Below, one piece after another: positions 20,706 to 50,793 of a DNA stretch of 64,000 nucleotides. A program made the translations under genes and the position numbers. Numbering within the stretch: the first letter of the stretch is position 1; every line of letters starts with the position of its first letter. The stretch lies in assembly GCF_023746595.1 (NCBI RefSeq), contig NZ_CP080572.1:1100530-1164529 (forward strand), written 5' to 3'. The notes under the pieces were generated by a model, which saw only the letters and a list, made by a program, of their open reading frames with translations, searched no databases and was not told the origin of the DNA. This DNA comes from Thermococcus argininiproducens. Lineage in GTDB: Archaea; Methanobacteriota_B; Thermococci; Thermococcales; Thermococcaceae.

Positions 20706-21974
20706 ATGTTTGTTGATGCAGATCTTCATATCCATTCACGATATTCTAAGGCTGTTTCAAAGCTTATGACTTTTCCAATTTTAGCTGAGAATGCAAAGCT
20801 TAAAGGATTAGGGATTGTAGGTACTGGAGATATTTTAAACCCAAAATGGGAAGAGGAACTCCTCAAACATGCTCAAAAAGTTGATGAGGGTACTTATGAA
20901 ATAAAGGGAATAAAGTTTCTTCTTACAGCAGAGGTAGAAGATAATAAAAGGGTACATCATCTTCTTCTCTTTCCTAATATTGAAGCAGTAAAAGAAATGC
21001 GAGAAAGACTTGGGCGCTATTCTAACGACATTAATAGTGAGGGTAGGCCCCATTTAACAATAAACGCTGCTGCAATAGCGGATTTAGCAAACGAGGTGGG
21101 AGCCCTAATTGGCCCAAGTCATGCCTTTACCCCATGGACTGCATTATATAAAGAGTACGACAGCTTAAAAGAGGCATATGATAACGTAAAAATTCATTTT
21201 CTTGAATTAGGGCTTTCTGCTGATTCATACATGGCTGATAAGATTAAAGCTCATCATAAGCTCGTATATTTATCAAATTCTGATGCTCATTCTCCACAAC
21301 CACATCGCCTTGGAAGAGAGTTTAACCGTTTTGAGATCAAGGAAGCAACTTTTGAAGAAGTTAAAAAAGCTATCTTGAAACGGGCTGGAAGAAAAATTAT
21401 TCTTAATGCTGGTTTGGATCCAAGACTGGGAAAATATCATTTGACTGCATGTTCAAGGTGTTACACCAAATACCGACTTGAAGATGCAAAAAGACTAGGA
21501 TGGAGATGTGAACTCTGCGGGGGGATTATAAAGAAGGGCGTTTACGATAGGATTCTTGAGCTTGCAGATACGGATGAAAAGCCCAAGGATAGGCCTCCTT
21601 ACCTCCACCTTGCCCCTCTAGCTGAAATAATCGCAATGGTTCTTAACAAAGGAGTTGAAACCAAGTCTGTAAAGAGTATATGGGAACGTCTTCTGAAAGA
21701 ATTTGGAAGTGAGATCAGGATTCTTGTCGATGCTCCTATAGAGGCTATAGCAGAGCTTATTGGGAACGACATAGCGAAAGCAATCTGGGCTTTCAGGAAT
21801 GAGAAACTTATTGTTGTTCCTGGTGGAGGAGGAAAATACGGGGAGATAAAACTACCTGAGGAAGTTAAAAAAGCAAAACTTGAGGATCTCGAGAACATTG
21901 AGGTTCGGGGAGAAGACGTGTATTATAAGCCTAAACAAAGTTCAATCTTAAGCTTTTTGAAAAAAACTGATTAA
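20706..21974 (+). CDS. Endonuclease Q (EndoQ), deaminated-base repair enzyme
   Basis: PHP-family DNA repair nuclease of 422 residues that nicks 5' of uracil, hypoxanthine, xanthine and abasic sites. Residues 1-220 form the PHP metal centre (DADLHIHSRYS, GTGD, HHLLLFP, PSHAFTPW, NSDAHS). A zinc finger (CSRC and CELCGG) lies near residues 245-275, then a HhH-like helical part (IAELIGNDIAKAIWAF). The C-terminus QSSILSFL matches a PCNA-interacting peptide. A hairpin with a T tract follows the gene. Assignment rests on recognised similarity to the Pyrococcus furiosus enzyme. Confidence 0.88.
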   Translation: MFVDADLHIHSRYSKAVSKLMTFPILAENAKLKGLGIVGTGDILNPKWEEELLKHAQKVDEGTYEIKGIKFLLTAEVEDNKRVHHLLLFPNIEAVKEMRERLGRYSNDINSEGRPHLTINAAAIADLANEVGALIGPSHAFTPWTALYKEYDSLKEAYDNVKIHFLELGLSADSYMADKIKAHHKLVYLSNSDAHSPQPHRLGREFNRFEIKEATFEEVKKAILKRAGRKIILNAGLDPRLGKYHLTACSRCYTKYRLEDAKRLGWRCELCGGIIKKGVYDRILELADTDEKPKDRPPYLHLAPLAEIIAMVLNKGVETKSVKSIWERLLKEFGSEIRILVDAPIEAIAELIGNDIAKAIWAFRNEKLIVVPGGGGKYGEIKLPEEVKKAKLEDLENIEVRGEDVYYKPKQSSILSFLKKTD

Positions 21975-21990
21975 ATTTTCTCTCATTGAA

Positions 21991-22010
21991 ACTTCTTCTG
22001 AAGTCTTTTT
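21991..22010 (+). terminator. Possible terminator after EndoQ
   Basis: ACTTC-TTCT-GAAGT hairpin followed by CTTTTT, starting 17 bases after the EndoQ stop. The stem is short, but T-rich tracts alone suffice for archaeal termination. The rest of 22011-22185 is AT-rich with a TATA-like ACTATATTAAAA near 22138 that may serve the next gene. Confidence 0.45.
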
Positions 22011-22185
22011 GATATAGAATGTTTACTCTAGGAATGAAGGTAGCATAATTGATTTAACTTCTGAAAGCAAATAGAAAATTGATAATCAAATTACTTGGTT
22101 AATTGCAACATTAAACAAATCTTGAGATTTACGTTGACTATATTAAAATCTTGGAGGAACTATCAAAGATCTGGGATGACAAAAT

Positions 22186-23409
22186 ATGAAATGGGGGATA
22201 TTTCATAGAGTGATAGGACTCTTTCCCCAAAGGTTTAAATTTTTCGTTGTTTTTGTGGGATCTCATCTCCTAGCCGTAATAAGTATTCTTATCCCGAAAG
22301 ACTCTAAGAGAATAATGCTTATTTCATACCCCTCTTTTGCTGGCAATATGAGGTACATTTATGAACGAATGAAAGAGCTGGAACAGTTTAGGGATTATAA
22401 GTTCATATGGCCGGTTGAAAATAAAGGGGTGTTTGGAAAGCGTGAAAATACAAAGTTTGTTATGTATGGAACAGTTGAATATCTGTGGCAATTATTGAGG
22501 TCAAAATACATATTTTCTTCTCAAAGAATTCCTTACTGGAAGGCTAAAAATCAAATTGGAGTCATGATCTGGCATGCAGTTCCAGGAAAAAGAGGTTTTT
22601 GGTTTGACAAACGATACCAGAGCTGGGTTGGGAGACTTATTTTAAAAAGTACTCTAAGAAAAATAGACTATGTTGTTGCAACTTCTGAGTTTACAAAGGT
22701 GTTATTTTCTGCAATTTTCCACATACATCCAGAAAAGATCTTAGTTTTGGGCATGCCCAGATGTGACGCACTCTTCAAAGAAAAAGGGGAGGCACTAAAA
22801 AGGCTAGAGAGTCTCTTAGGCTCGAAGATTAAAAACAGAAGGATCGTATTTTACTTGCCAACTTTCAGAGATTATGATAGGAGGGTTACACAAGAGCTGT
22901 TTACTAACCTTGTAAAAGACCAGAAATTTAGAGAATACTTAGAACAGAGAAAGGCACTTTTTATTTTCAAACCTCATCCGCATGATGAGGTATTTGTTAA
23001 AAAGTATTCTGATGAGTACATTAGGGTAATAACTAATCACGAGTTGATGGAAGCAGGGTTGACACTTTATGATATTCTTCCTGCAGCAGATATTTTGGTG
23101 ACAGATTATTCTTCCGTATTTAGAGATTACCTTCTTTTGAATAGGCCGGTGATATTCTATATTCCGGATAAGAAAAAATATTGTGAAACAAGAGGATTAG
23201 TTTTGGAGCCATTTGAACTTTGGACCCCAGGAGATAAAGCAAAGACTGTTGAGGAATTACTGAAAGCTTTGGACGAAGCTTTTGAGAATCCTAAAAAATG
23301 GGAAAAGGAACGGCTTTGGCTTAGAGATTTGTTCTTTAAATACAAAGACGATAGATCCAGTGACAGAGTTATAGAGTACTTCTGGCCGCTAAGCTCCGTT
23401 AAGAAGTAA
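22186..23409 (+). CDS. CDP-glycerol/polyol glycerophosphotransferase-like protein (TagB/TagF family)
   Basis: A 407-residue membrane-associated glycosyl/polyol-phosphate transferase. The N-terminus has an amphipathic hydrophobic stretch, and the GT-B-like core shows the TagF-type signatures WHAVPGKRG (near 128), FYLPTFRDYD, IFKPHPHD and the acidic DILVTDYSSVFRDYLLLNRPVIFY. These bind the CDP-linked donor in wall-teichoic-acid polymerases. Its last 21 bases overlap a convergent cytidylyltransferase gene. A surface polyol-phosphate polymer in this archaeon is inference. No clear ribosome binding site precedes the ATG. Confidence 0.85.
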   Translation: MKWGIFHRVIGLFPQRFKFFVVFVGSHLLAVISILIPKDSKRIMLISYPSFAGNMRYIYERMKELEQFRDYKFIWPVENKGVFGKRENTKFVMYGTVEYLWQLLRSKYIFSSQRIPYWKAKNQIGVMIWHAVPGKRGFWFDKRYQSWVGRLILKSTLRKIDYVVATSEFTKVLFSAIFHIHPEKILVLGMPRCDALFKEKGEALKRLESLLGSKIKNRRIVFYLPTFRDYDRRVTQELFTNLVKDQKFREYLEQRKALFIFKPHPHDEVFVKKYSDEYIRVITNHELMEAGLTLYDILPAADILVTDYSSVFRDYLLLNRPVIFYIPDKKKYCETRGLVLEPFELWTPGDKAKTVEELLKALDEAFENPKKWEKERLWLRDLFFKYKDDRSSDRVIEYFWPLSSVKK

Positions 23410-24078
23410 GAGAGAAGTAACTCGAAGGTCATCTTTATACGTTATCTTGAAGTTGAAACTTGTTGATTCATAGGCATAAATCTTTACCTCTGGTAGATAT
23501 TTGCGGAGAAGCTCTATGTCACTTTCAATATTCAAAAATTCTGAGTTTGGGACCATATTTATTAAGGTTTTAAGAATCTCACTTCTGTAAGCGACAGGTG
23601 ATTTACAAAGCCTTAATTCCTGTCTATTCAGGACTTTGGATACAAATTCTCCATTAACCCTTACCACATAACTCGGAATTTTTGAACAGAAACTTATCAC
23701 ATCATATCTGTTCAAGAGTTTTATCATCTCGCTAAGTACATACGAAGATACAAAAGGTCGGTCTGCAATGTGGATTATTACTCTCTCCACGTCTTCATCT
23801 AGTGCTAAGACACCGTCTTTGAGAGATTCGTTTTTTGTTCTGCCCCCATCAATAATTTTTGTGAGCTTGGAATATCTATTTTTAAGATGTTCAATTATTT
23901 TGCTGTATTGAGAATCGCTAACGACATATATCTCATCAATTTCTTCTGTTTTCTCTAGCTTTTCAATTGAATACTCAATCAGCATCTTGTTCCCGACATA
24001 TAAGAACTGTTTTGGTATAGGGCTGCCGATTCTTTCTCCTTTGCCACCCGCGAGGAGAATCCCAACTGTTTTCCCCAT
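23389..24078 (-). CDS. IspD/TarI-like cytidylyltransferase
   Basis: A 229-residue nucleotidyltransferase using CTP: N-terminal GILLAGGKGERIGSPIPKQF with the glycine-rich loop and conserved Lys/Gln, RVIIHIADRPFVS carrying the metal-binding Asp, and RLCKSPVAYRSEIL. It resembles both IspD and TarI (ribitol-5-phosphate). Because archaea make isoprenoids by the mevalonate route (hmgA is in this window), a polyol-phosphate substrate is more plausible, matching the convergent TagF-like neighbour. GAGGAAGG precedes the ATG at 24078; a TATA-like CTTATATAG lies near 24113-24121. Confidence 0.82.
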   Translation of the reverse strand: MGKTVGILLAGGKGERIGSPIPKQFLYVGNKMLIEYSIEKLEKTEEIDEIYVVSDSQYSKIIEHLKNRYSKLTKIIDGGRTKNESLKDGVLALDEDVERVIIHIADRPFVSSYVLSEMIKLLNRYDVISFCSKIPSYVVRVNGEFVSKVLNRQELRLCKSPVAYRSEILKTLINMVPNSEFLNIESDIELLRKYLPEVKIYAYESTSFNFKITYKDDLRVTSLLLLNGA

Positions 24079-24187
24079 GTTCCTTCCTCAAGTACCCTTT
24101 GACCTCTTAACTATATAAGTAATTATTGCTTACTCCTCGAAAATTTTGTCTTCAAGAATATTAATGAGATTACTCCCATTGGATACG

Positions 24188-24206
24188 AAAGAGGTCCAAC
24201 CTCTTT
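24188..24206. other. Perfect hairpin between galT and the cytidylyltransferase gene
   Basis: AAAGAGGT-CCA-ACCTCTTT forms an eight-pair stem with a three-base loop, followed on the plus strand by TT. It lies 57 bases beyond the galT stop. It may be a 3' end signal for galT mRNA or a protein site; the sequence does not decide. Confidence 0.35.
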
Positions 24207-24262
24207 TTAAATCAACGGACGAGGCTTTCAGTGTAAAGCAAATTCTAAGCATTTTAAAGACA

Positions 24263-25243
24263 CTAAATGCATTTTCCTCTCATATCTATTTTGTCTTTGA
24301 TCTTTTTGCAAGTCTCTTTGAGTTTTTGGGCGTTTTCTTCTGGGATTCCGTCGTAGGTGAACTCCCATGTGCTCATTTCTATTCCAGCAGCATATTTTAG
24401 TTTATCTTTTTCTCTGAGAAGTGGATAAAACTCAATATGCAGATGATAGAAGGGGTACTCCCCTTTAAAGGGGGCTTGATATACACTCATCACGTATGGC
24501 ATTTGCCTTTCAAAAAGAGAATTAAGGATGCCTGTAGTCACTCTTAGGATATCCGCTAAGTTGAGGGTTTCTCCTTGGGTTAGCTGAGTAAGCCATTGGA
24601 CGTGCCTTTTTGGATAAATGTGTACTTCAAAAGGCCAGTTCGCAAAGAAAGGTAGGAAGAGAATAAAGTCATTATTTTCATAGATCAGCCGTTCTCCGTT
24701 TAATTCTTCATCTAATATCTTGCAGAATAGACATTTCTTAAATTGATTATAGTACCTTCTAGAATTCTCAATCTTTAATCGAACCTTCAATGGTATGAAA
24801 GGCAGAGCATACAATTGCCCATGGGGGTGGGCTAAACTCACGCCTATTTCTTCACCCTTATTTCGAAAAATTGATAGATATGCAATATGAGGGTTGTTTT
24901 TTAATTCTCCTGTGATCTGCCTCCACAGCTGGACAACTTTAGTCATTTGGTCTATGGAGAGTTCCTCCAAGTCTTTCAATTCATGCTCTGGGGTCTCCAC
25001 TATAACACTGCATTGGCCAAGAGCGCGAGCTTTTTTATAAAACCCTTTACTTTCAGGTTTAGGAGTGTTGAAAGAAAGCATTGGGAAACGATTAGGAAGT
25101 GAGAGCACTTCCCACCCATAACCAGTCTCTTCACCACCTGGGCAGAAAGGACAAAAATCTTTTGGCCTCCAAGGCCGTTTTTCTCTCTCCGCAGATACCA
25201 TGATCCACTGGCCGAGCAAGGGATTATAACGGAGTTCTCTCAT
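24263..25243 (-). CDS. galT: Galactose-1-phosphate uridylyltransferase
   Basis: Leloir-pathway enzyme exchanging UDP-glucose and galactose-1-phosphate, 326 residues. It has the N-terminal zinc motif CPFCPGG, a second KCLFCKIL zinc site, the catalytic AHPHGQ (His-Pro-His) loop, and the C-terminal HLHIEFYP histidines. The start ATG at 25243 follows GGTGGTAAG, which sits in the loop of an inverted repeat (25244-25257). It is divergent from a GH1 glycosidase gene and 3 kb from galK, forming a galactoside island. Confidence 0.95.
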   Translation of the reverse strand: MRELRYNPLLGQWIMVSAEREKRPWRPKDFCPFCPGGEETGYGWEVLSLPNRFPMLSFNTPKPESKGFYKKARALGQCSVIVETPEHELKDLEELSIDQMTKVVQLWRQITGELKNNPHIAYLSIFRNKGEEIGVSLAHPHGQLYALPFIPLKVRLKIENSRRYYNQFKKCLFCKILDEELNGERLIYENNDFILFLPFFANWPFEVHIYPKRHVQWLTQLTQGETLNLADILRVTTGILNSLFERQMPYVMSVYQAPFKGEYPFYHLHIEFYPLLREKDKLKYAAGIEMSTWEFTYDGIPEENAQKLKETCKKIKDKIDMRGKCI

Positions 25244-49569: not shown

Positions 49570-50793
49570 TTAACGTCCGAGCTCTTTGTGGGCTTTAGCT
49601 AAATGTTTCGCAGCTATTGCTGCTAAAAGTGAAAGTTCTCCAGCCAAAACAGCTCCAGCTATGATCTCTGCAAATTTTTTGGCATTCGTTCCTGGGGGTT
49701 CACCACCACCTGCGACTCCCATTATAGTCAGGGCTTCTCGTTGTGTTGGTACTCTGGTTCCTCCACCTACGGTTCCGATCTCGAGGCTAGGCATTGTTAT
49801 ACTGATGTATAAGTCTCCCTTTGGAGTAACTTCGGCCAGAGTTATTCCATGTGAACCTTCAGTTATTTGTGCTTCGTCTTGACCAGTTGCAAGGAAAATT
49901 GCTCCCACAATGTTTCCAAAGTGAGCGTTAAATCCGTAGCTCCCTGCTTGTGCGGATCCCACAAGGTTTTTACGATAGTTTACCTCTGCTATAAGTTCGG
50001 GGGTTGTCTTAAGTTTTTTCTCTACAATTTCACGCGGTATTATGGCCTCAGCAATCACGCTTTTTCCTCTGCCATTAATGAAATTCATCGCATTAGGCTT
50101 TTTGTCAACACACACATTACCTGAAAGGGCCAGATATTTAACTTCTGGAAATCTGCTTTCAATTACTTTCATGAGCTCTTCACTTGCTATTGTCACCATA
50201 TTCATTCCCATAGCATCGCCAGTTTCAAATTCAAAACGAAGATAGAGATTGTTACCAACTATATATGGTTTAATATTCCTAAGCTTTCCATGTCTAGTAA
50301 CTTTGCTTACGGCCTCTTCTTGAAGGTACTCAATGTTTCCTTTGACCCACTCTGCAACTTCCCTTGCTTTTCTGGCATCGGGACACTTGAGAAGAGGTGC
50401 ACGTGTCATTTTGTCACCAATTATAGTGGTTTTGACACCACCTGCAGCTGTTAGAGTTGAACACCCCCTGTTCACAGAGGCTACCAATGCACCCTCAGTT
50501 GTGGCAAGAGGGATGTAGAAGTCTCCTTTGGCATACTCTCCATTTATCTTGAGAGGTCCTGCTACGCCCATAGGAATTTGAACGACTCCAATCATGTTTT
50601 CAATATTTTTGCTGATGACTTGGTTTGGATCTATAGAGTAGTGGCCAATGTTGTCTAATGTTATCCCAAGTTTTCTTTCAAGTGCCTTTCTTCTTATCTC
50701 TGTGGCAAGACGCTTGTCATTTGTATGTTTTTCCACTTGGTGTAATTTAATTTCTCCCTTAGCAACTTTCTCAATGAGTTCTTCAATGTTCAT
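49570..50793 (-). CDS. hmgA: 3-hydroxy-3-methylglutaryl-CoA reductase
   Basis: NADPH-dependent class I enzyme making mevalonate for archaeal isoprenoid lipids, 407 residues, soluble. Catalytic elements are ATTEGALVASVNRG, DAMGMNMV, KKPNAMNFINGRGKSV (in parts), GSHGITLAEV and GGGTRVPTQ, with the C-terminal histidine in AAIAAKHLAKAH. TTGGGGGTT precedes the ATG at 50793; an in-frame codon at 50823 is inside the previous gene's end. It probably shares an operon with the MinD-like gene upstream. Confidence 0.96.
   Translation of the reverse strand: MNIEELIEKVAKGEIKLHQVEKHTNDKRLATEIRRKALERKLGITLDNIGHYSIDPNQVISKNIENMIGVVQIPMGVAGPLKINGEYAKGDFYIPLATTEGALVASVNRGCSTLTAAGGVKTTIIGDKMTRAPLLKCPDARKAREVAEWVKGNIEYLQEEAVSKVTRHGKLRNIKPYIVGNNLYLRFEFETGDAMGMNMVTIASEELMKVIESRFPEVKYLALSGNVCVDKKPNAMNFINGRGKSVIAEAIIPREIVEKKLKTTPELIAEVNYRKNLVGSAQAGSYGFNAHFGNIVGAIFLATGQDEAQITEGSHGITLAEVTPKGDLYISITMPSLEIGTVGGGTRVPTQREALTIMGVAGGGEPPGTNAKKFAEIIAGAVLAGELSLLAAIAAKHLAKAHKELGR

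Follow-up and report, generated by a model that had tools for sequence, protein, structure and literature searches.

A patchily distributed transferase and cytidylyltransferase gene pair inserted beside galactose genes in Thermococcus argininiproducens: a candidate surface-glycan decoration cassette

Most of what is known about the surface glycans of archaea concerns N-glycans and exopolysaccharides. The closest described systems to the locus reported here are bacterial. In the TarI-TarJ-TarL system of the Firmicutes (ribitol-phosphate wall teichoic acid), the CDP-polyol maker and a PF04464 transferase are encoded together. The Acs1/Bcs1-type CDP-ribitol synthase systems (Haemophilus, Proteus and Parabacteroides capsule or O-antigen) use the same cytidylyltransferase fold and are likewise accompanied by polyol-phosphate transferases (TagF-like or LicD) or glycosyltransferases; bifunctional Bcs1 reduces ribulose-5-phosphate and makes CDP-ribitol (PMC10299916). 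The same two families are also neighbours in two-gene bacterial versions, as in Streptomyces NBC_01324 (locus L083). In the E. coli sequence LR890578.1, a conjugative plasmid, they form an unannotated co-directional PF04464 and IspD-type operon with a 4-bp overlap (L082 1847-3696), followed by an apparent gatZ-type gene. No papers on such a system in Thermococcales were found in the open literature searched, which is weak evidence of novelty.

We analysed a 64,000-nucleotide stretch of the Thermococcus argininiproducens genome (contig NZ_CP080572.1), hereafter the window; G000 denotes this genome and the other G numbers denote comparison genomes. Both open reading frames of the pair, here TF and ID, were found on the window exactly where they had originally been predicted, tail to tail and with overlapping ends (Table 1). 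The arrangement and the length of the overlap were identical in two other genomes, G079 (98% and 93% amino-acid identity to the window ID and TF respectively) and G090 (75% and 71%), the latter belonging to a different genus, so that the layout is shared by three genomes of two genera. This identical layout and the purifying selection on both genes confirm that the pair is more than a chance arrangement. Three points had escaped the original prediction: ID lacks a family-invariant aspartate, the pair was inserted, and similar pairs turn up patchily across Thermococcales.

Table 1. Coordinates of the gene pair, its insertion and the flanking host genes in the window
Feature	Coordinates	Strand	Basis
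PHP-domain protein (TIGR00375), host gene left of insert	20706..21974	+	galT-adjacent in relatives
Left copy of flanking host sequence TTAAGCTTTTTGAAAAAAACT, 3' end of PHP-domain gene	21948..21968	+	alignment to empty sites G082/G084
Inserted segment, about 2.28 kb, missing from seven relatives	21969..24245	.	locus comparison
TF, CDP-polyol phosphotransferase-family protein, 407 aa	22186..23409	+	PF04464, PDB relatives, motif alignment
Convergent 3' ends of TF and ID, 21-bp overlap	23389..23409	.	same length in G079, G090
ID, IspD/TarI-type cytidylyltransferase homologue, 229 aa	23389..24078	-	PF01128, PDB relatives, Foldseek
ID residues 103-108, H-I-A-D-R-P (family elsewhere H-D-[A/S/G/V]-x-[R/H]-P)	23755..23772	-	alignments
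Right, diverged copy of flanking host sequence TAAGCATTTTAAAGACACT	24246..24264	+	alignment to empty sites
galT (galactose-1-phosphate uridylyltransferase), host gene right of insert	24263..25243	-	profiles, relatives

TF matched PF04464 with 262.3 bits (gathering cut-off 22.1, E=8.5e-78), and its closest solved structures by sequence were TarL (8va1), Cps3D and TagF (3l7i). Alignment with TagF and other homologues demonstrated that both catalytic-type histidines are retained, His130 (WHAVPGK) and His264 (KPHPHDE), together with a TDYSS motif at residues 306-310. A hydrophobic stretch near the N-terminus (about residues 17-37) would be compatible with membrane association; the predicted structure of TF was unusable (pLDDT 39, few input sequences). 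ID matched PF01128 (IspD) with 94.9 bits (gathering cut-off 27, E=7.7e-27) as well as the general NTP_transf_3 fold, and IspD and TarI were its closest PDB relatives by sequence (1vpa, 4jis). The best Foldseek matches of the ID model were likewise all IspD/TarI, generic matches from a moderate model (pLDDT 60, C-terminal half unreliable, few input sequences). TF remained below the curated equivalog cut-offs for TarB (54/500 bits), TarF (93/550) and TarL (108/1000), and ID below those for D-ribitol-5-phosphate cytidylyltransferase (NF001183, 95.3 vs 166 bits) and the MEP enzyme ispD (TIGR00453, 123.1 vs 181.3 bits). As neither protein reached a specific NCBIfam cut-off, the families are certain, while exact functions are not given by homology. 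The original interpretation is supported in part: it stands for the TagB/TagF-type and IspD/TarI-type families, for a role outside the MEP route and for the functional pairing of the two proteins, but not at the level of any curated TarB, TarF, TarL, TarI or IspD function, nor for the proposed polymerisation into a teichoic-acid-like envelope polymer.

PF04464 was present in 18 of 94 Thermococcales genomes and a full-length ID homologue in 15 of the 94; no further ID homologues were found among 115 genomes of the phylum. PF04464 accompanies the IspD homologue in all 15 genomes (hypergeometric P 9e-15 without correction for phylogeny), and the two genes lie close together in 14/14 genomes with both on one contig. 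In the remaining genome (G067) the two genes fall on separate contigs, both close to an end of their contig. Three genomes have PF04464 only: in G064 and G085 the contig ends within the gene, and the only homologue in G083 is a distant and longer one. Full co-occurrence and proximity thus indicate that the two genes form a patchy accessory module. The cut PF04464 gene of G085 (L074 7940-9282) adjoins a gene for a 266-aa sugar-phosphate nucleotidyltransferase-type protein, with no IspD homologue beside it; the 266-aa protein is perhaps an alternative activating enzyme.

Outside the clade of the window, all 11 measured pairs are co-directional, and 10 of them overlap or are at most 11 bp apart; in G006 a FkbM methyltransferase gene lies between the two co-directional genes. 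A GT2 glycosyltransferase gene directly follows the pair in most of the larger clade, and many relatives' loci also include genes for a Wzx-type flippase, an NDP-sugar nucleotidyltransferase, an NDP-sugar epimerase or further GT2/GT4 glycosyltransferases (several of these neighbours are named from their clustering with a single annotated representative). Co-occurrence, co-directional adjacency and this glycan-gene context bear out the functional pairing. In the phylogeny, the 13 non-fused archaeal cytidylyltransferases fell into a single clade (99/99), distinct from Firmicute TarI and from the IspD of the MEP route; its outgroup was weakly supported (64/84). In both the ID and the TF tree, G000, G079 and G090 grouped in a sub-clade of their own with a long branch (1.12 changes per column in ID).

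The best supported reading, which we consider probable, is that the pair is an acquired two-gene cassette for the decoration of a surface glycan by activation and transfer of a CDP-alcohol. ID would activate a small phosphorylated polyol, or a similar alcohol phosphate, with CTP, and TagF-fold TF would move the polyol phosphate from the CDP-polyol onto an acceptor glycan, presumably lipid-linked and at the cytoplasmic face. The acceptor would thereby gain a charged substituent through a phosphodiester link; this reading allows for a short polymer but does not imply one. Assembly of the acceptor would depend on glycosyltransferases and a flippase whose genes lie elsewhere. The main glycan island of the window genome is located at 574-589 kb of the genome, with a flippase and GT4 genes as well as wecB/wecC-like and amino-sugar genes (the latter by sequence inspection only). 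The main support for CDP-polyol chemistry comes from the relatives' co-directional pairs and glycan-gene context, the reductase fusions described below and the bacterial two-gene versions, which are co-directional and keep the HD motif, whereas the window pair is convergent. Against this reading count the distance of about 530 kb between glycan island and pair, the absence of any family-specific cut-off reached and the searches of the window genome, in which no reductase partner was found. No glycosyltransferase lies beside the window pair, which sugar-salvage genes adjoin instead.

As originally noted, the pair comprises only TF and ID and includes no polyol-phosphate dehydrogenase. In two relatives, G078 and G030, IspD is fused to a short-chain dehydrogenase/reductase (SDR), so that these genomes have the whole Acs1/Bcs1-type fusion. 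In the PDB, the G078 fusion is most closely related to S. pneumoniae TarI (2vsh), which makes CDP-ribitol; the fusion also shares 47% identity, over 96%, with a Parabacteroides enzyme that is annotated as a bifunctional cytidylyltransferase/SDR and encoded in an O-antigen-type cluster with LicD. Both fused archaeal proteins cluster with bacterial fusions (96/91), and for these two relatives we infer that the polyol is ribitol. The fusions (L058 8792-10210 and L073 8603-10027) score 181.6 and 188.3 against the TIGR00453 cut-off of 181.3; being just above the ispD (MEP) cut-off, they are likely to be mis-named by automatic pipelines. Related loci were found in two viral contigs only. One of them (L124 2980-5559, IMG/VR UViG_3300032069_000005) carries an Acs1-like IspD-SDR fusion with, directly after it, genes that are GT2-like and LicD-like by inspection, as if the virus encoded its own module for CDP-ribitol synthesis and phosphopolyol transfer. 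The window ID differs from the Acs1/Bcs1 enzymes in three respects: it is without a reductase domain, it has lost the invariant Asp, and it belongs to the separate archaeal clade. The SDR domain from the G078 fusion, used as a query, had one weak match (29%) in the window genome. A TarJ search of the same genome, run with no positive control, gave none; this result and the scores far below the TarI, TarL, TarF and TarB cut-offs set the pair apart from TarI-TarJ-TarL.

Archaea make sn-glycerol-1-phosphate (Gro1P) for their lipids; with this alcohol phosphate already at hand, no dedicated reductase would be needed. A more specific form of the cassette reading is therefore that the pair activates and transfers Gro1P by way of CDP-1-glycerol. 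This would agree with the 13 of 15 archaeal loci that have no fused reductase, with the searches of the window genome and with the Gro1P-preferring CTP transferase activity, of unidentified gene, that is reported for lysates of Archaeoglobus fulgidus (PMC8262930). However, the known CDP-glycerol makers belong to cytidylyltransferase families other than IspD (PMC8262930), and no sequence feature read here fixes the substrate, so that Gro1P is a possible substrate that we propose tentatively. The residues near E. coli Thr165 (KSP vs LTP/QTP), considered for a substrate call, do not separate ribitol from MEP enzymes cleanly.

The family-invariant aspartate (E. coli IspD Asp106) is replaced by Ile in G000 and G079 (HIADRP) and by Leu in G090 (HLANRP), whereas the 12 remaining archaeal homologues keep it, as do the aligned bacterial and plant IspD/TarI sequences. 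A review counts Asp-106 with the strictly conserved residues that line the active site of IspD (PMC11770629). The flanking His, Arg and Pro are retained, indicating that the loss is not an alignment slip, and it agrees across separate assemblies from two genera. With the invariant Asp missing, the activity of ID on CTP is not assured. ID could thus be a catalytically impaired partner, a pseudo-enzyme or a CDP-polyol carrier or scaffold, with TF drawing its CDP-alcohol from another enzyme. The replacement in all three members and the long branch of their clade fit this alternative. However, the other CTP-site residues are retained in ID (G-x-G-x-R16, K23, S85, R107, R152 and K211; R16, K23, S85, R107 and K211 are Arg20, Lys27, Ser88, Arg109 and Lys213 in E. 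coli numbering) and no second full-length IspD homologue was found in the window genome.

Moreover, the dN/dS of ID was 0.06 in G000-G079 and G000-G090 and 0.08 in G079-G090, compared to 0.08-0.17 for TF and 0.035-0.135 for six neighbouring genes, with dS near saturation in the comparisons involving G090. These low values indicate that ID is under selection in spite of the Asp loss. A new Asp is present two residues downstream in G000 and G079 (ID D106), at the position where the MobA-type homologue L056 bears its Asp (SCDTPFL), and may take over the role of the lost one; the Asn at this position in G090 speaks against a strict need for a replacement Asp. Taken with the retained CTP site, we consider an impaired ID unlikely.

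In the window, galT heads a galT-GH1-MFS-GH57-galK cluster. In G074, G075, G078, G080, G082, G083 and G084, the 3' ends of galT and the PHP-domain gene face each other with few bases between them; G000 and G079 have about 2.28 kb with exactly TF and ID at this junction. The GC content of the insert is 35.7%, vs 39.4% for the window. About 20 bp of host sequence are repeated at both ends of the insert, with the right copy clearer in G079 (TTAAGCCTTTTAAAGAAATTAA), which indicates an insertion with target duplication and argues against deletion in the relatives. In the matching galactose cluster of G090 the pair separates GH4 from GH1, two genes that abut in three sisters of G090 (G086, G089 and G092). 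Within one and the same cluster, the convergent pair is thus lodged at a different convergent junction in each of the two genera. A 732-aa protein, predicted to be secreted and matching Peptidase_C13, is encoded inside the galactose cluster of G090 (L060 12563-14761); a protein with this match is also found in the galactose cluster of G086 and G092, and was not matched in G089.

The cassette reached the lineage by insertion between two convergent genes, each cassette gene following a co-oriented host gene at both junctions, so that it could be read from its neighbour's transcript. A scan for promoters and terminators gave no excess, and the sugar-regulon operator TATCAC-N5-GTGATA had one two-mismatch match in the window, at chance level. 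No transposase or recombinase was found within the insert. A bolder idea is that of a mobile two-gene cassette for phosphopolyol transfer in hyperthermophilic archaea, which would target the gaps between convergent genes and exchange surface decorations among genera, the active-site carboxylate of ID having shifted by two residues (MobA-like D-x-P) to a new metal/substrate geometry, perhaps for sn-glycerol-1-phosphate; it is speculative and we regard it as doubtful. The lower GC, the patchy distribution and the lost Asp could also be expected of a functionless passenger, a decaying fragment acquired horizontally, but the frames are intact in three genomes of two genera, dN/dS is low in both genes and two separate sites are occupied, making this very improbable.

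An isoprenoid (MEP) role for ID, suggested by the Pfam name IspD and by T. maritima IspD as best PDB match, was rejected as very improbable, since IspF was not found in the window genome and HMG-CoA reductase is present (hmgA, which the original prediction had correctly placed within the window, lies at 49573-50703, minus strand), ID scores well under the ispD cut-off and PF04464 is its constant company. What ID shares with MEP-pathway IspD is the fold and most CTP-site residues; it differs by the lost invariant Asp and the absent pathway context.

If the cassette reading is true, phosphodiester-linked polyols would add a charged component to the archaeal surface, with possible consequences in hyperthermophiles for virus attachment and for the stability of the wall. 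The loss of the Asp under strong purifying selection makes a catalytic assumption held for the whole family directly testable. The two fused relatives that reach the TIGR00453 cut-off are a warning that automatic annotation will label such archaeal genes as MEP-pathway ispD.
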